Assembly: GCA_905234865.1 (NCBI GenBank)
Contig: CAJOJE010000010.1
Span: 1-64,000 of the forward strand
DNA length: 64,000 nucleotides
Direction: 5' to 3'
DNA from: Candidatus Gastranaerophilales bacterium
GTDB lineage: Bacteria > Cyanobacteriota > Vampirovibrionia > Gastranaerophilales > Gastranaerophilaceae
The translations under genes and the position numbers were made by a program. The notes under the pieces are model-generated. The model saw nothing but the letters and a program-made list of their open reading frames with translations. It made no database searches and was not told where the DNA came from. This document shows, one piece after another, positions 23,001-57,613 of the stretch (the stretch's first letter is position 1; the number at the start of each line of letters is the position of its first letter).

Positions 23001-26000
23001 TGAGAATAAGGTTGCGTTTCTAAGTTCTAAACCGCCTGTTGAGTTATTAACAACCCCGCTGTTTGCCGTTATTGAATCCGTTACCGCTAATTTTGCATTG
23101 TTTGCGATATTAACGTTATTTTGAGTAATCGAATTAACGGTTGTAGTACCCGTATTTAGGTTTGTTGTACCGATTGGAGTTCCTTCATCCGTTACGATTA
23201 AAATGGTATTTGTATCGTCTAAATTCAAAACTCCCGTATTGTGAATATCAACCGTATTGTTTGTAATGCTTGAATTTGAAACATTTACCGTACCTGCGTT
23301 TTTAATTGCAACATCGGATACGTTAGTGAAACTTCCGATTGAATCAACATTCAATGTTTGACCTTGAGCAACGGTTATACCGGTATGAGAATTACCGTCA
23401 ATATTGTTTCCGTTGCCGAAAATCGTAAATTCACGATTATCATGAGCTAAAGCGCCGAAGTTTTCATTTGCGGTATAATTACTTGCCAATGAATACGATG
23501 TAGGTGTTATATCTCCTACTCTGTCCTGAATAGCATCAATCAAATCACCGTCGTAAGTTTGAGTTCTTGTTGCAACCAAATGCCCGTTATCGCCGTCAGG
23601 CGTAAAGACATATAAATATCCTGCAGTTGCGGAAGATATTTGATTTGTAATAACGTTTATATCATTTCTTGCATTACCCGTTAAATAATCGGTTTCCGTT
23701 CCGTTTGCAAAATGAATATTATCTCTTGTAATATTGATTGCGGTTAAAGTAATCGTTCCTGCACCCGAATTTACGGTTAATTTATCCATTGAATTATTAA
23801 GGGCATCGTAATCAACGTATAATTTAAGATTATTATCACCCGTTAATTCTCCGATTGTAAGAGTATCGCCTGCGTTATTATTTCTAAGATCAAGCGATGT
23901 ATCTCCCGATACGTTTAATACATCAAGGTTTGTCGTTGCGGCTTTTGAACCCAGTTTAAGAGTACCGTCACCCGATAATTTTGTTGTACCCGTTATTGCA
24001 ATAGAATCATTAATCGTTATATTTTTATCGGATTGAATATTCAAGTTTATTCCGTTATTTGAATAAATGCCCGTGCCTGCACCGGTTGATGTTCCCGTTG
24101 AATTGTTATTTTCAAAAAGAATATCGCCGCCTGTTGCATTTAACGTTAAAGTTCCGCCGTTATTATAAATTGCGGCACCTTCGTTTGATTTGTTTCCGCT
24201 AAACGTTAAAATATTATCGGAATCGTTATTTGTAATCGTTATTGCAATATTGTTTCCGTAAACCGCACCGCCGTTATCGGCCGCTTCATTACCCGTAAAT
24301 GAAGTGTTTGTGATATTTAAGGAATTGAGCGTATCGCTTGTTGCATAAAGCGCACCACCTTGAGCCGTTCCGTTTTCGGCAGTTGCTTTATTATTAACAA
24401 ATGATGAATTTTGTACATTTACGGTGTCATCGTTTGCAATTTGTAAGTATACCGCACCACCTTGAGCGTTTCCTTGAGAGGATGAAGCATAGTTATTATT
24501 GAAAACCGCTTCTATTGTTTCAACTTTTCCGCTTGAATAAACGGCGCCGCCTTTTGCGCTGCCTTTCGAAACATTCGGATTACCGTTTGTTTGAGCATGG
24601 TTATTTTGGAAAGTTCCGTTAATCGAAGATATTGTACCGATATTTAAAACGGCACCGCCAAAAGTATCTTCCGTACCTTGTGCATAGTTATTCGTAAACG
24701 TTGCATTTATATTTTCGATTGTAGAACCCGCATTATTATTTGCAACGGCACCGCCACCCGCATAACCGTTTACGGTACTTACGTAATTATTGTTGAATGT
24801 GCCTGTTATATCGGGGATGTTTGAGCCGATATTTAGAATTGAACCGCCAAAAGTATCACCTTCGCCAGTTGTGATGGAATTATGAGAAGAGCTTCCCGAA
24901 GCGCCGATAATTTCTGCATTTACTTCACCTGAATTTACAAGTCTGCCGCCTTGCATATTAATTGTTTTTTGGTCTATTGAAGTTAATATTGTCGTTGTAC
25001 CGCTTTGAATATTTGTAGTACCTTTTGCTTCGGTATCATCTTTAATTGTATCGAAGGAGTTTGTACCATTTAAAATCAAAGTACCCGTATTATAAATATC
25101 CGTTGTATTTCCCGTAAACGTAGAATTATTAATACCTAACGTTCCTGCGTTATTTACTGCAACATCGGATACGTTAGCGAAACTTCCGATTGAATCAATA
25201 TTCAATGTTTGACCTTGAGCAACGGTTATACCGGTATGAGAATTACCGTCAATATTGTTTCCGTTGCCAAAAATCGTAAACTCACGATTATCATTTGCTA
25301 ATGCGCCAAAATCTTCATCAGCAACGAAGTTACCCGTCAAAGAGTACGAAGAAAGCGTAATTGCGCCCCTGTCTTGAATAGCATCAATCAGAGTATCATC
25401 ACTTTGTGTTCTTGTTGCGGATAAATGACCGTTATCACCGCTTGGCGTAAAAGTATAAAGATAGCCCGTATCGGTTCCCGATGTTATCGGACTTGTTATA
25501 ACATCAATATTATTTCTGGCTGCACCCGTTAAATAATCGGTCTCCGTTCCGTCAACAAACGCCGTATTGTCTTTTGTAATATTGATTGCAGTTAATGTTA
25601 TTTTTCCTGAGCCCGAATTTACGGTTAAGCTATCCATTGAATTATTAAGAGCATCGTAATCAACATAAAGTTCAAGTTCGCTATCACCCGATAATGTGTT
25701 AATTGTCATAACATCGCCCGCATTATCGTTTCTAAGGTCTAAGGATGAATTTCCCTGAATTGAAAATTCATTATACGTTTCATCGAAAGCATTACCGCTT
25801 AATTTTAAGGTACCGCCGTATATTTGAGTTACACCGTCTGCGGTTACTTTTCCCGATATATCAACCGTACCTTTTTCGCCGTTTCTGTTAATTGAAATTG
25901 CATTTGCAGGATTTGAAACATTGATATCGTCCATTACCGTTAGAGTATGATTTTCGCTTGCGTTAAGTTCAAGGTTGCTGCCCGTTAAATACAAGCCATA

Positions 26001-29000
26001 TCCTGAACCTGACGATGTGCCCGTTGAATTGTTATTTTGAAGAAGAATATCTCCGCCTGTCGCATTAAATACAACATCTCCGTCTTTAGCATAAATTGCG
26101 CCGCCTGTTGCCGCACTGTTTCCCGTAAGCGAAATATCTTTTGTATTTGCGGTTATCGTAATTTTTGAATTATCGGCATATATTGCACCGCCCATGGATT
26201 GTCCGGTTGTTGAGGTTGCATAGTTATTGGTAAAACTTGAATCAACAAAATTCAAGTCCGTATTAACGGCATAAACCGCACCGCCTAAAGCATAGCCCGA
26301 ATTTGATACGGCATTATTGTATCCGAAATCTCCGGCATTTGAAACATCGGCATCAGTTCCGATAAAATACAAAGCACCGCCTAAAGCGTCCCCTGTATTT
26401 GCCATAGCATAGTTATTTTCAAATGAGGCGTTAAGGTTTGATATTGAAGTATCAACCATGGAAGCGATAGCACCACCCATTGCATTTGCACCTGCTTCGG
26501 AAGTTGCGTTGTTATCTCTGAAATACCCTTCTATACCGTCAATTTCACCGTCATTATATATAGCGCCGCCTAAAGCGGAATCGTCATCGGCTTTTGCGGA
26601 GTTATTTAAGAATGTGCCATTTATAGAAGCAATATGGCTTTGATTATCTATTGCGCCGCCTGCCGCTATGGTTTTTGCTTCTACGCTGTTTTGAGTAAAA
26701 TCACCGCTGATATTTGTTATTCCTGTCGTCATATCGGCGCTGTATGATGATATAGCGCCGCCTAAAGCAAAGTCGGTTGTTGAAATTGCGGAGTTTCTGT
26801 CAAAATTAGCATTTACCGCATTAATATTTCCCGTATTATAAATGGCGCCGCCTTTTGCGTCATATCCTTCGGCTTGAACCGTATTTTTGCTGAAATCGCC
26901 TGATATAAGGGTTAATTCGCCCTCATTATAAACGGAAGCACCAAGAGCAGTGTTTGTAGTCGTATTTATTGCATTTGAATAATATTCAGACCCCTTAACA
27001 TCGGCGTTGATTGAACCTTCATTGTATAATCTGCCGCCATGGAGAGCAATTTCTTTTTGGTCGGCTGAAGTTTTAATTGTTGTTGTGCCGCTTTTTATGG
27101 TTACATCACCGTTTGTCGTACCTTCATTTGAAATTTTTACAACGGAGTTATCGCCTTCAAAAGTCAAAGTACCGATATTGTAAATATCTGCCGTTGCATT
27201 ATTTGTAAATGACGAATCAATTACTTTTAAAGTACCTGCGTTATTAACCGCATAATCGGACGTATTTGAAAATTCATTAACGTTATCAATCGTGAGGGTT
27301 TGTCCTTCAAGAACATTTATACCGGAATTTCCGGCACCGTATACATTGTTTCCGTTGCCGTAAATCGTAAAGTCACGACCAACTCCGCCCAGAGTTCCAA
27401 AACCCCTGTTTGCGGTAAAGTTATCACTCATTGAATAAGCATTAAGAGTTAAATTGTTATCTTGAATTGCGGTAATTAAATCTCCGTCATACAAAACTCT
27501 TACGACAGACAATAAGCCGTTTGTCGAAGAATCGGGAGTAAAAGTATAAATGTACCCTGACGATGTTACGCTTGACGTAACAGGATAGTTTGTCACAATT
27601 ATCGAATTCCTTGCAGCACCCGTTAAATATTCGGTTTCGCTGCCGTCAACAAAAGCGTCGTTATCATTTAAAATATTAACCGCAGAAAGTGTGATTGTTC
27701 CTGAGCCCGAATCAACGGTGAGTTTATCCATAACGTTTGTCGTTGCATCATAATCTACATAGAGTTTTGCATCGCTCAAACCGGATAAAGTATCAATCTT
27801 AAGGTTGTCGCCTGCATTATTATTTCTAAGGTCAAGCGCCATATTGCCCGTTAAATCTAATTCTTGCAGGTTAGCCGAAGCCGCTTTTGAACCTAATTTA
27901 AGTGTACCGTCGCCTGTTATTGCGGTTGTACCCAAAATATCAATGTCGTCATTAATAGTAATGGTATTAGGTTTTGTAATATTCATATTTATTCCGTTAT
28001 TTGAATAAATGCCCGTGCCTGCACCGGTTGATGTTCCCGTTGAATTGTTATTTTCAAAAAGAATATCCGCACCCGTTGCGTTTAAAGTTACGGTTCCGTT
28101 TTGGTTGAAAATTGCGGCGCCGTTATCTGCAATGTTACCTCTAAAGATTACATCGCCTTCACTTGCGGTAATTACGATATTTGAATCTTCACCTTCTCCG
28201 TATATTGCACCGCCTAAGCCGTATCCTGTTCCCGTTGAAGTTGCGGAGTTATTTATAAATTTAGAATTATTTATTTCAACGTTAGCATAATCAGCCCTTA
28301 TTGCGCCGCCTGCAGCAACTCCCGAGCCTGAAACCGCTCTGTTATTTGTAAAATCACCCGAAAGGTTTGTAACGTTACCGTATGTGTATAAAGCACCGCC
28401 GTTAGCTTCTATTCCGCCCGTTGCGGTATTGTTGTCAAAGTCTGCTCTTAAATTAGATAATGTTCCCGCATTATATATTGCAGCACCATAAGCGGAATTT
28501 TCATTGGATGTTACGGTATTATTCGAGAAAGAACCTTTAATTCTCTCTGTGTTTGAAATTTCACCTATATTATATACGGCAGCCCCTATTGCAAGAGAAT
28601 CAAAAACGCTTAATTCCGAATTTTGGGCATTCAAATTATTCACCGTCATAACGGAATCATGGTCATTTACTAATCTGCCGCCTCGAATATTAACGGTATC
28701 TTGATTTAATGATGTATGTATTTGGGTTGAACCGCTATAAATATTGGTAATACCGGTATTTGGAGTATTATCGGTAATTGTATTAATTTCGTTATTACCG
28801 TTCAAATTCAAGACATAAATATTATGAATATCTCTTGTGTTGTTTGTAAATATTACATCGGAGACATTTAATATACCCTCATTTATAACGGCAGAACCGA
28901 TAATTCCAGAGAACGTACCGACATCGTCAATTCCGAGCGTTTGACCGTAAGAAACCGTTATACCGTTATAAGAATTACCGTCAATATTGTTTCCGTTGCC

Positions 29001-32000
29001 AAAGATTGTAAATCTTCTGTTATTTACGGCTAAAGTGCCTAAATCTTCGGTTAAAACGTAATTATCAGACATTGAATAAGAATCAATTACGACACTTCCT
29101 ATTCTGTTTTGAATAGCATCAATTAAACTGCCCGTATAGCCTTCACTTCTTATAACACCCAAATGACCGTTATCACCGCTTGGCGTAAAAGTATAAAGAT
29201 AGCCCTTATCGGTTAATGATGTTATTGAATTTGTTATAACATTAACGTTATTTCTGGCTGCACCCGTTAAGTAATCGGTTTCCGTTCCGTCAACAAACGC
29301 CGTATTGTCTTTTGTAATATTAATCCCGTTTAACGTTACCGTTCCTGCGCCCGAATTTACGGTTAAACTGTCCATTTTATTATCAATAGCGTCATAATCA
29401 ACATAAAGTTTAAGTTCGCTATCGCCCGATAATGTGTTAATTGTCATAACATCGCCCGCATTATCGTTTCTAAGGTCTAAGGATGAATCTCCCTGAATTG
29501 AAAATTTATTATACGTTTCATCAAAAGCGCTGCCGCTTAATTTTAAGGTACCGCCGTAGATTTGAGTTGCACCGCTTGCAGATACCTTACCCGATAAATC
29601 AACCGTACCTTTTTCATTGTTTTTATTAATTAAAATGTTATTTGCCGCAGTTGCAACATTAATATCATCTTTTATCGTAACGGTTCTGTTTTGATTTGCG
29701 TCAAGTTCAAGATTACCGCCTGTCAGGTATATGCCGTACCCCGTTCCTCCTGCGGTTCCCGTTGAATTATTATTTTGAAGAAGGATATCATTGCCTGTTG
29801 CGTTTAAAACTACATTCGTTTTTGAACCGAATATGGCACCACCTAATGCAGATGAGTTATTTTGAACGGTTACTTTTTTATTTTCCGCCTTAATCGTAAC
29901 GGTTGTATTATCATCTTTTATATTATACGAAGCAATCGCACCGCCTTGAGCTGCTGCGGAGTTATTTGTCAACGTCGTATCATTTAATGTTAAATTTGAA
30001 TTTGATAAGAATACGGCACCGCCTATGGCATTAGAATTTGTCGATTCTGCGGTATTGTATTCAAAAGAGGAATTTGCAAGCGTTACATTATTATCTGCGG
30101 CAAAAAGAGCGCCGCCCATTGCATTGCCGTCGGTCGATTGAACGCTGTTAGCGTTAAATGTTGAATTGTTAAATAGGGCATCAGCACTGACAGGAGCGCC
30201 TGTTGATGTACCTATATATACGGCACCGCCTTGTGATTGCCCGGTTGCAATTGCGTGGTTACCCTTAAAATCGGCACTGATATTATCAATCGCACCTTGA
30301 GCAAATATCGCACCGCCCGCCGCAAAAGTATCGGCGTTAGCGTGGTTAGACGTAAAATCACCCGTTATATTTTGAATTGTACCCGTTGAAAAAATTGCAC
30401 CGCCATAAGCGTTATTATCGGTGCTCGTAGTGTTTTCACCAACCGCATGGTTACCGTTAAAGTTTGCTTCAATATCTCCTAAACTGCCTGTTGAATAAAT
30501 TGCGCCGCCTGCTGCCGTACCTTCCGATTTAGCATAGTTTTCAACAAAATCACCGTTGATATTTTCAATCGAGCTTGTTGAATAAATTGCACCACCATAG
30601 GCATTGCTGACAGCGTCCCCATAGTTGGCGATAAAATCACCCTCAAGACTATTAATCGTACCAAGAGCATAAATTGCACCGCCATAAGCTCCTGCGTCTG
30701 AAGATGTAACATTATTTTGTATAAAATCACCCGTTATACTTTCAATTGACGCAGATCTAGTTGTATATATCGCACCGCCCATACTGTTGCCCGGGGCATT
30801 AATATAGTTATTTATGTAATCACCCGTTATATTTGCAATCGGCGTATTGGTATACATACCGCCGCCCATGCCGCCGTTAGCGTCTGAAGAAGTTGCAATA
30901 ATACGGTTTGCAATAAAATCGGCTGAAACATAATCGAGGCTCTCTCCTCTTGCAAATAAACCGCCGCCCCCGCCGCTACCTGCAGCAATCTCATTAGCGA
31001 CAAATTTACCCTCAACGCCATCTACCTTAGCATTCATACCAAAATGCACCGCACCGCCTTGCGCATTGGTAACACCCACAGGAGTGTGGATGTAGTTACC
31101 GACAAAATTTCCCCTAACGGTTCCTAAAGTAACTTTACTGTCTTTATCGTTATAATATTGAATAGCGCCGCCGTATGCTCCGACTTCCGAGCTGTCAACT
31201 CCTTCACCGGGGGCAATTGTAACACCGTTTCTTATAAAGTTTCCTTCAATTAAATCAATTGATACGTTTGCCGAGTCTTCATCACAGTAGGAAATGGCGC
31301 CACCGTAAGCATTGTTCACGTATTTGCCTGATTCAAGAGGTTCTGTCCAGAAAACCTGATTTTCTACAAAATCGGACACAATAGTTTTATGAGTATTGCT
31401 TACATCACCGCTAATATATATTGCACCGCCTTCATGCGCAGAAACTCCGTTAGTAAAGGTATATCCGTTTGCACCTTCCGTAAATTCGGCGCTATCCGTT
31501 ATTCTTGTTGAAGTTTCCGTATACCCCGCAGGAGTTGCATAAGTATAGTTAAATGTTTTTACTTCACCATTGGGTAAATTTACGTTAAAATCTCTTGTTC
31601 CCGCACCGTTTTCGATTGTTAAGCCGTCATTTAAGTTGTTGTATAAAGAATTTGGTTCAAGGTTAATTTTTTTATAAGCAAGATTTGTGCCGTCCGAAAC
31701 GGTAAAATTATATTCATCCGCAGTTCCTTCAATAATTGAAGAAGCGCTTGATTGAAGTTTTGAAACATCATAAGAATAATAATAGGTGTTACCGCCCGAT
31801 TCTAAAGTAAATACGGGGTTTACGGGAGTATCCTGTTCATAAAGAGCTTGTGCGCCCGTTTTTGTTAATTTGGAAAGAACGTCTTTTGTTTCATCGGAAG
31901 GCGTAAAATAATAAGTTGTCCCGTTAATTAAAACGGAATGGGTATTTGTACCTTTTGTAGCATAAAGAGCAATTGAAGAATGCTCACCGTTTAAATATGC

Positions 32001-41319: not shown

Positions 41320-41811
41320 TCATTTTATTCTCTCCCTATACCAAATAACTTTCCCTCTTATATAATCCCCTATTTGATAGCTTTTAAGTTCGGGTTTATA
41401 GGGGATAAAATTAATGTCGATTTTGCCTTTGCTTGATGTGTTCGGGTTATCAAGCCCGAATTCATAGTGTGTAAAGACGGTATTTTTATTTATTTGAATA
41501 TTATATTTTTTGCACAATTCGGCAACAAGTTTAAACATAGCTTCCATTTGAACTTGTGTTATGGGGCAATCGCCTAAGTCCCACTGCCCCTTAAAATTTC
41601 TCATTCCGCATACTGCAACACCTATGCTTCCCGTATTCCCGCCTCCCGTATGAGCTGCATAACATCCGTCATAACAATTCAGGTTATCTTCGGGTTTATA
41701 TTTTCCTTCTTTTACTTTGCCGTTTTTATCGATTACAAAATGATAATGTTCAAAATCATCATTGTTTGGGAAATAATTTCCCGCCGTCCAATGGATTATA
41801 ATTCGTTTCAT
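41320..41811 (-). CDS. N-acetylmuramoyl-L-alanine amidase (Amidase_2/PGRP fold), phage lysis enzyme
   Basis: The start is set at ATG 41811 with AAGGAGG upstream. The frame continues further but would run through the structured element at 41819-41870. The 163 residues show the zinc histidines in IIIHWTAG (His7) and TVFTHYEFG (His115), and AAHTGGGNTGSIGVAVCGM. It would cut peptidoglycan stems to release particles. It is the last gene of the particle operon, after the XhlA-like gene, as in PBSX where lysis genes end the cluster. No cell-wall binding domain is seen. Confidence 0.9.
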   Translation of the reverse strand: MKRIIIHWTAGNYFPNNDDFEHYHFVIDKNGKVKEGKYKPEDNLNCYDGCYAAHTGGGNTGSIGVAVCGMRNFKGQWDLGDCPITQVQMEAMFKLVAELCKKYNIQINKNTVFTHYEFGLDNPNTSSKGKIDINFIPYKPELKSYQIGDYIRGKVIWYRERIK

Positions 41812-41818
41812 ATTCCTC

Positions 41819-41870
41819 CTTGTGCCGCAGAAAGGAAAACGTTGAGTTTTTCTTTCGAGGTACACTATAA
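41819..41870 (-). promoter_or_regulatory. 52-base structured element, copy A, before the amidase
   Basis: Read on the minus strand, the element starts TTATAGTGTACCTCG and ends CTGCGGCACAAG, identical to copy B at 42532. The ends can pair (TGTACC with GGCACA, one A-C mismatch). The 25-base middle forms AAAG-x-AAAA/TTTT-x-CTTT around a 7-base loop. The element runs directly into the amidase SD, and the TAG stop of the XhlA-like gene lies inside it. A translation control element is likely; a DNA recombination footprint is the alternative. Confidence 0.6.
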
Positions 41871-42134
41871 GTCCTCTTTTCTTCTTGCCTTTAAAATTTC
41901 TTTTATCTCGCCAAACCCTTTTGTCATTTCATCTTTTACGTTTTCAAACTCTTTTAAAACGTGCGTTTGAAATTCTTTATACGCATTTAATTCGACAAAA
42001 CTTTGTTTCATATCGTTTAAGATTTCCCTATGCTTTTTTTCAAGTTCTTCGGGTTTAACAAAGATTTTGTTTTGCCAAATAAAAGCAAGAATAATTATAA
42101 TTATCGGTGCAAATTCAATTATTTTTTCGTCCAT
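41865..42134 (-). CDS. XhlA/holin-like protein: membrane helix plus coiled coil
   Basis: The 89 residues have one hydrophobic N-terminal helix (EFAPIIIIILAFIWQ) and a charged coiled coil to the end. This is the size and neighbourhood of phage lysis accessory proteins such as BhlA or, with inverted order, XhlA. AGGGC precedes the ATG. It lies between a 28-residue membrane peptide and the amidase. It could help the amidase cross the membrane, or be a structural tail component; no catalytic motif is expected. Confidence 0.6.
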   Translation of the reverse strand: MDEKIIEFAPIIIIILAFIWQNKIFVKPEELEKKHREILNDMKQSFVELNAYKEFQTHVLKEFENVKDEMTKGFGEIKEILKARRKEDL

Positions 42135-42175
42135 ATTTAAGCCCTTTTTTGTGTCATTGCGTAAAAACTTCTCTT

Positions 42176-42262
42176 TTAATCTTCTTCATTTTCAGCAACC
42201 CAAAGAGCAAGAAGAAATATGATAAAAGGTGTTAGCAAACTAACTATACAAAGTGTGTTCAT
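42176..42262 (-). CDS. 28-residue membrane peptide in the lysis module
   Basis: The frame MNTLCIVSLLTPFIIFLLAL continues to a short acidic tail, WVAENEED. It is one membrane helix with an acidic end. The ATG at 42262 has CGGAG a few bases upstream. It sits between an attenuator-like hairpin and the XhlA-like gene. The size, charge pattern and place suggest a small holin-like or lysis-control peptide, but no family is recognised. Confidence 0.5.
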   Translation of the reverse strand: MNTLCIVSLLTPFIIFLLALWVAENEED

Positions 42263-42286
42263 TTTAATTCTCCGTTTTAAAAAAAA

Positions 42287-42351
42287 GGGGTCAAAATGCA
42301 AGTTACAACGTCATTTATTAAAAAAGATATTTGACCCCGTATATAGGTCAA
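42287..42351 (-). promoter_or_regulatory. Attenuator-like alternative hairpins before the lysis peptides
   Basis: Minus-strand order is TTGACC (42351-42346), GGGGTCAAA (42338-42330) and TTTGACCCC (42295-42287), then eight T. The first and second can pair over 6 bp. The second and third pair over 9 bp and form a terminator with a 34-base loop. The segment begins 17 bases after the stop of the 48-residue gene. Readthrough would switch on the 28-residue peptide, XhlA-like gene and amidase. Confidence 0.55.
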
Positions 42352-42367
42352 TGGAATGTATGAAAAG

Positions 42368-42514
42368 TTATTTTGCTACAATCCCCACGATATCCTTAAT
42401 ATCTCTTACGAGTTCTTTAAGGTCGTCAAGGATTTCTTTTAATTTCCCCATTGTTTCGGGGGTTTTGATTAATTCTTTTACGATTGCCAAAATTTCTACT
42501 ACATTAATTGCCAT
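42368..42514 (-). CDS. Small helical protein, 48 aa, in the tail-lysis interval
   Basis: The frame starts MAINVVEILAIVKELIKTP and continues with heptad-like leucines (MGKLKEILDDLKELVRDIKD) to the end IVGIVAK. It reads as an amphipathic helix pair. AAGGAGGA lies seven bases before ATG 42514. It follows structured element B and is followed by the attenuator. The function is unknown; small amphipathic proteins at this place in phage clusters include lysis and tail-tip accessory factors. Confidence 0.6.
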   Translation of the reverse strand: MAINVVEILAIVKELIKTPETMGKLKEILDDLKELVRDIKDIVGIVAK

Positions 42515-42531
42515 AATTTAATCCTCCTTTT

Positions 42532-42583
42532 CTTGTGCCGCAGCTTGGCAAATGATGAATTTGACAAGCGAGGTACACTATAA
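42532..42583 (-). promoter_or_regulatory. 52-base structured element, copy B
   Basis: The ends are identical to copy A (TTATAGTGTACCTCG and CTGCGGCACAAG on the minus strand) and the length is equal. The middle differs in sequence but keeps the stem: CTTG-x-CAAAT/ATTTG-x-CAAG around a 5-base loop. It begins two bases after the stop of the DUF4376-like gene and runs into the SD of the 48-residue gene. Confidence 0.6.
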
Positions 42584-56446: not shown

Positions 56447-57613
56447 ATGGCATATTTAAAATTATCAAACGTGTTTGAAAAAATCGCACATTCGTACAAA
56501 AAATACCGCTACATTATTAATCAAGGCGGAACATCGAGCACAAAAACTTTCTCGACGCTTCAATTTCTTGTTATTTTAGCGCTTAAATATGATTTTGAAA
56601 TTGATATCGTAGGATTAACTCAAGGACATTTAAAATCAGGAGTTTTGCTCGATATGCCAAAAGTTATGTCCCAATTCGGGCTTAATTTTTATACCATGTA
56701 CTCAAAAACAAATAAAAATTTAGAATTTCATAAAAGTACGATTAATTTTATTTCCGTAGATACAATAGGAAAAGCTCATGGCGGGAGAAGGGATATTCTT
56801 TATTTGAACGAAGCAAATCACCTTAACTACAAAATAGCGGAACAATTAATCATAAGAACAAGAGAAAAAGTTTTCATAGATTTTAACCCGACGAGCCATT
56901 TTTGGGTTCATAGCGAAATTTTGAACAACGAAAAAGAAAACGCCGTATTGATTAAATCAACATACAAAGATAACCCTTTTTTGGAAAAAGAAATTATACA
57001 AGCGCTTGAATCAAGAATGAAGGATGAAAATTTTTGGAGAGTATACGGGCTTGGCGAAGTAGGACTTTTGGAAGGAAGAATTTTTACAAACGTTGAGATT
57101 AAAGATTTTGACAAAAACGCTTTCGACAAATATTATAACGGCATAGACTGGGGCTTTTCGACCGACCCTTTTGCATTTATAAGATGTGCAATCGAAAACG
57201 ACAAATTATATTTAACGGAAGAAATTTATTCGACAAATCTTTTAAATAAAGATTCAATTCCCTTGGTTAAAAAAATAATAGGCAGAGAATACGTTACTTG
57301 CGATTCATCGGAACCAAAGAGTATTTCAGAATATCTTAATTCCGGAATTTGTGCAATAGGAGCAAAAAAGGGCAAAGGAAGCATTGAAACGGGAATAAAA
57401 TTTCTTCAAAGTTTTTCAAAAATTTTTATCCACAAAAGCCTTGTAAACGCACAAAAAGAATTTTTTAATTATTGTTTTAAAAAAAATTTTGACGGAGAGA
57501 TAATCCCTGTTCCGGAAGATACAAACAATCATCTTATAGATGCTCTAAGGTATGCTCTTGAAGATTTAACGGGTAAAGATACAATTACCGTAATTAAGGG
57601 GCTTAGAATTTAA
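56447..57613 (+). CDS. Phage terminase large subunit
   Basis: This is the packaging motor that cuts and pumps DNA into a prohead. The ATPase P-loop reads GGTSSTKT (27-34) and Walker B reads LYLNEAN (118-124), the Asn-Glu form of this subfamily. The RNase-H-like nuclease has GIDWGFSTDP (Asp234), CDSSEP (Asp286) and NHLIDALRYAL (Asp365). All three acidic residues are present. The 388 residues are short but complete. It is transcribed divergently from the particle cluster, with rpiB and fba between. No portal gene follows; a terminator and HU come next. Confidence 0.92.
   Translation: MAYLKLSNVFEKIAHSYKKYRYIINQGGTSSTKTFSTLQFLVILALKYDFEIDIVGLTQGHLKSGVLLDMPKVMSQFGLNFYTMYSKTNKNLEFHKSTINFISVDTIGKAHGGRRDILYLNEANHLNYKIAEQLIIRTREKVFIDFNPTSHFWVHSEILNNEKENAVLIKSTYKDNPFLEKEIIQALESRMKDENFWRVYGLGEVGLLEGRIFTNVEIKDFDKNAFDKYYNGIDWGFSTDPFAFIRCAIENDKLYLTEEIYSTNLLNKDSIPLVKKIIGREYVTCDSSEPKSISEYLNSGICAIGAKKGKGSIETGIKFLQSFSKIFIHKSLVNAQKEFFNYCFKKNFDGEIIPVPEDTNNHLIDALRYALEDLTGKDTITVIKGLRI

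Follow-up and report, generated by a model that had tools for sequence, protein, structure and literature searches.

Two short hairpin elements in a phage region of this DNA, copies A and B, are very probably (probability about 0.8) separate insertions of a non-autonomous palindromic mobile element of about 44 nt, which resembles REP and Rickettsia palindromic elements (RPE) and is enriched in phages. The window, meaning the whole 64,000-nt stretch that was analysed, carries tail, baseplate, sheath, major head, and terminase genes in this region. A DNA comparison with a phage collection gave no match to the region or to copy A. The relevant features are as follows.

41320..41811, minus strand: amidase (endolysin), downstream of copy A and outside the A-B interval; Amidase_2 PF01510 2e-16, phrog_5867 endolysin 8e-36
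41819..41870, minus strand: copy A, 52 nt as first delimited, exact ends
41822..41865, minus strand: 44-nt family core of copy A, GTGTACCTCG-stem-CTGCGGCAC; covariance model R1/R2, 69 bits
41865..42134, minus strand: 89-aa ORF, which takes its TAG stop from copy A
42368..42514, minus strand: 48-aa ORF downstream of copy B; weak match to phrog_7712, function unknown
42532..42583, minus strand: copy B, 52 nt as first delimited, exact ends
42535..42578, minus strand: 44-nt family core of copy B; R1 69.5 bits, R2 65.5 bits
42586..43137, minus strand: tail-fibre-type gene (DUF4376), which ends just upstream of copy B

Both copies have the form TTATAGTGTACCTCG-N25-CTGCGGCACAAG with exact ends. None are expected in shuffled sequence, and A and B are the sole pair with such ends in the window. 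The initial annotation had described them correctly as two elements of equal length at these positions, with identical 15-base and 12-base ends and differing 25-base centres (AAAGAAAAACTCAACGTTTTCCTTT and CTTGTCAAATTCATCATTTGCCAAG). Its description of the fold also holds, as each centre forms 5 bp, one mismatch at the same position (A.C or T.C), a further 4 bp, and a 5-nt loop. The conserved ends pair too, with an asymmetric internal loop among the pairs GTG/CAC, CC/GG, and C/G. The TTATA and AAG flanks of copy A are common to copy B and to the array on contig C19 of the same genome only.

The covariance-model search proposed at the outset turned up more copies, both in this genome and elsewhere, and these covary strongly; the outcome was not an isolated pair without conserved pairing. 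Model R1 was built from seven copies, and R2 is its refined version. R1 finds seven copies in the genome of the window (A and B on contig C10, three on C19, and one each on C1 and C7) and also has matches elsewhere in the host order, which by the look of the genes is probably Gastranaerophilales. Outside this genome, copies are present in at least eight sources, comprising metagenome-assembled genomes (MAGs) of the same family and two kinds of phage contig (L012/L013 and L209). With R2, four copies were found in G212, three in G255, two each in G281 and G507, and one each in G192, G248, and G002; G129 has two weak partial matches. Among 386 genomes drawn across the phylum, matches fall within the taxonomic family of this genome only, as do all strong genome matches. 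Copy number per genome is 1-7, most loci of the family are in prophages or phages, and the strong copies mostly lie within 30 bp of a gene end. Most of the 85 genome pattern matches, and the viral matches in several searches, were rejected as chance, largely in high-GC DNA.

A reading of the two copies as hairpins that arose by chance, or as bidirectional terminators placed where genes end, is the least probable of those considered. An intergenic position and a hairpin in both strands would suit it, but shared exact ends with zero chance expectation do not, and the element has no T tract and is absent from the terminator scan. A promoter and terminator scan of the region stayed at chance level. 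The presence of the family in many genomes has already refuted the chance version.

The family has a clear structural signature. Its lopsided internal loop, GTACCTC/TGCGGC, is nearly invariant, as is the apical loop TCANC with few exceptions, and the stem between them is variable, N.C being its favoured mismatch. In 21 distinct copies, aligned by fitting to the covariance model, 95.7% of cells are paired compared to 73.7% in shuffles, and both sides have changed in 12 of the 16 pairs. The covariation score reaches 0.546, whereas shuffling, a control uncorrected for relatedness, gives 0.168 and slid partners give no more than 0.199. Nearly all shuffles also have fewer pairs and fewer pair types. 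Coordinated change extends to the outermost pairs (G-C to C-G and U-A to A-U). The suggestion that the structure is selected is thus supported by covariation across the family. G.T pairs and A.C pairs are about equally scarce (5 versus 9, small numbers that make for a weak test); G.T pairs are not in excess, so there is no sign of selection on the RNA of one strand alone. The strict conservation of the internal loop across many copies could reflect a function in phages.

Empty sites in relatives show that the elements are insertions. The C1 copy is missing from genome G005. A pair of copies in G507, between genes that read as pyrG and gatC by sequence (locus L017), is missing from the congeners compared, which mostly have 0-8 bp between the two genes. 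The ends of the insertions and any target duplications are not fixed exactly, because the empty sites are only 70-88% identical. At the same pyrG-gatC gap, G202 (L240, contig C13) has another hairpin insertion (GTGCCTGTGAATGTTATCATGCGGCAC...).

The sites themselves are diverse. On the phage side, copies neighbour genes for a baseplate hub, a tail sheath, a tail fibre, a RecE-like protein, and an endolysin; on viral contig L013 the neighbouring gene looks like a major capsid protein, judging by its sequence. The L215 copy adjoins the end of a tyrosine integrase. Neighbours of chromosomal copies include a SpoIIE-domain protein and a thioredoxin-like ferredoxin, as well as the putative pyrG and gatC of L017. 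A minority of copies lie in frame inside ORFs, at two kinds of site (G212; G192/G248), and a search for homologues of the 115-aa ORF with such a copy found none.

Orientation is mixed. Copies A, B, L012, L250:5225, L248/L249, and L209 are sense relative to the adjoining genes, and L106, L017, L049, L251 (three copies), and L250:8150/8206 are antisense, which amounts to about six independent sense and seven independent antisense copies. This bears on the proposal that the elements control translation of the amidase and the 48-residue protein, or more generally that a transcribed hairpin regulates downstream translation or stability, for example by pairing of ACCUC with the GGAGG ribosome site. 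We consider RNA control of this kind unlikely. Its attraction is that A, B, L012, and L209 are sense copies just upstream of a gene start, that the internal loop is strictly conserved, and that in the predicted RNA fold of copy B the conserved CCUC pairs with the ribosome binding site. In the predicted fold of copy A, however, this site is unpaired with the element. About half of the copies are antisense, and copies stand beside genes of unrelated kinds, past the end of a gene, or within an ORF. Moreover, 29 amidase homologues from related prophages, in genomes of the same taxonomic family, lack the element altogether, and G.T pairs are not commoner than A.C pairs. Rfam searches at gathering and permissive settings returned chance matches only, with none at or near the gathering score. 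The fold of copy B makes a local effect on expression possible for single copies, yet this does not explain the family. As repeat insertions, the elements are not switches that belong to the lysis genes. The statement that each element ends at a ribosome binding site applies to copy A, whose last 3 bases overlap the AAGGAGG of the amidase; copy B stops a few bases before its site.

A different proposal was that A and B are footprints of an inserted lysis cassette, that is, duplicated target sites or recombination sites that flank a mobile cassette. This is very unlikely. Three small ORFs are indeed flanked by two direct copies, and tandem arrays are known at other loci. The amidase, however, lies outside the A-B interval, which holds only ORFs of 48, 41, and 89 aa, so the two copies do not bracket a lysis cassette as had been claimed. 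Single copies also insert alone, and no integron integrase was found above the cut-off. Copies A and B differ at 12 of 44 positions. The nearest relatives of B are the chromosomal C19 copies (2 differences), and that of A is L049, the copy of another prophage in a public rumen MAG (3 differences, compared to 5 from the C1 copy). Each is closer to copies elsewhere than to the other, so A and B are not sisters and represent two separate insertions rather than one cassette event. The elements are therefore footprints of their own insertion, not of a cassette.

How such an insertion would move can be outlined on the basis of the conserved features. One strand folds into an interrupted hairpin of outer stem, lopsided internal loop, variable stem, and TCANC loop. 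The element may be mobilised in this form, as a folded single strand that a protein acting in trans would recognise via the conserved loops; such recognition would leave the stem letters free to change while pairing is kept. Copies would drop into small intergenic gaps in either orientation, where they may do little harm, and phages may carry them between hosts. The full version, in which the hairpin travels between phage and host as a folded single DNA strand and its internal and apical loops are recognised by an enzyme unrelated to RAYT or integron integrases while the stem diverges with pairing kept, is a tentative proposal that we rate as doubtful. Two familiar partners were considered and rejected. 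A RAYT/Y1 transposase is not supported, as the genome of the window has no Y1_Tnp gene and no hairpin was found near the Y1_Tnp genes of relatives. An integron attC site was dismissed as well, since the integron integrase model TIGR02249 had no match above the cut-off in 29 genomes, including that of the window.

Several other repeats were observed in this material. The three C19 copies form part of a tandem array (L006:8469-8775, G000 contig C19), in which about five elements lie in an apparent gene remnant; one unit has a second hairpin nested in its stem and one is truncated. A broader superfamily of hairpins with a TCANC loop and an N.C mismatch (L129, L130, L117, L132, L113, L125, and others) often has ACGTCGC or AACGGCGG before it and CCGGCTCACGC after it, occurs in tandem arrays, apparently repeated in genus g22, and looks like CGTC-type REPs. 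The repeat AAAAAATGCCGAAATCGGTATACGTTATAATTAAA occurs where contigs C10, C2, and C16 in the same genome end (L195 end, L196 start, L194 end) and is probably an assembly-breaking repeat; in C16 it lies upstream of an ORF that begins like the gene remnant on C19. Within the window, positions 25176-31441 contain numerous degenerate repeats (GCACCGCC-type units and copies of 300 nt and 175 nt), which probably encode one or more large repetitive proteins. The terminase gene at 56447-57613 is on the plus strand, opposite to the prophage structural genes.

Literature searches for this host group (on its prophages or palindromes) and for mobile stem-loop cassettes of phages returned nothing usable. 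Better-known systems offer comparisons. In cluster K mycobacteriophages, the start-associated sequences (SAS/ESAS) are almost all in one orientation, adjoin conserved gene families, and have arms that fail to support base pairing (PMC3203893). The present elements are similar to ESAS in being repeated inverted repeats near phage gene starts, but they occur in both orientations and at non-homologous sites, and they show strong covariation. Like MITEs they are small non-coding insertions near genes; IS terminal inverted repeats and a target duplication, which would mark a MITE, did not emerge from a comparison that covered Y1_Tnp as the parent IS and empty sites too diverged to reveal duplications. 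RPE provide a further parallel, drawn from their description, as they are palindromic, intergenic, and in frame in some ORFs, whereas the present copies lie mostly between genes and in phages.

The closest likeness is to REPs, which have alternative complementary stems, are intergenic, supply TAG stops, occur inside ORFs, and form clusters (PMC3733652). CGTC REPs have no known transposase, and what mobilises this class is not known (PMC3733652). The family shares with GTAG and CGTC REPs a short palindrome, alternative complementary stems, intergenic position, TAG stops, some copies in ORFs, and clusters. It differs in its 44-nt unit, whose lopsided internal loop is conserved, and in its TCANC loop, and in the window copies the outer stem is preceded by TTATA and followed by AAG in place of a terminal GTAG or CGTC tag; CGTC is found shortly upstream in some chromosomal copies. 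Its stems are alternative and complementary and it is mostly extragenic and multicopy (seven copies in one genome, which is low for a REP). The terminal tag is missing, so we do not file the element in those superfamilies and claim only that it works like a REP. Most descriptions of REP-like palindromes come from bacterial chromosomes (PMC3733652), and typical REPs are unlike this mostly prophage-borne family of low copy number. A family that is found mostly in prophages, has a clearly marked structure and empty sites, and keeps few copies in each genome offers a tractable case for learning what mobilises elements of this kind and whether they pass between hosts on phages.
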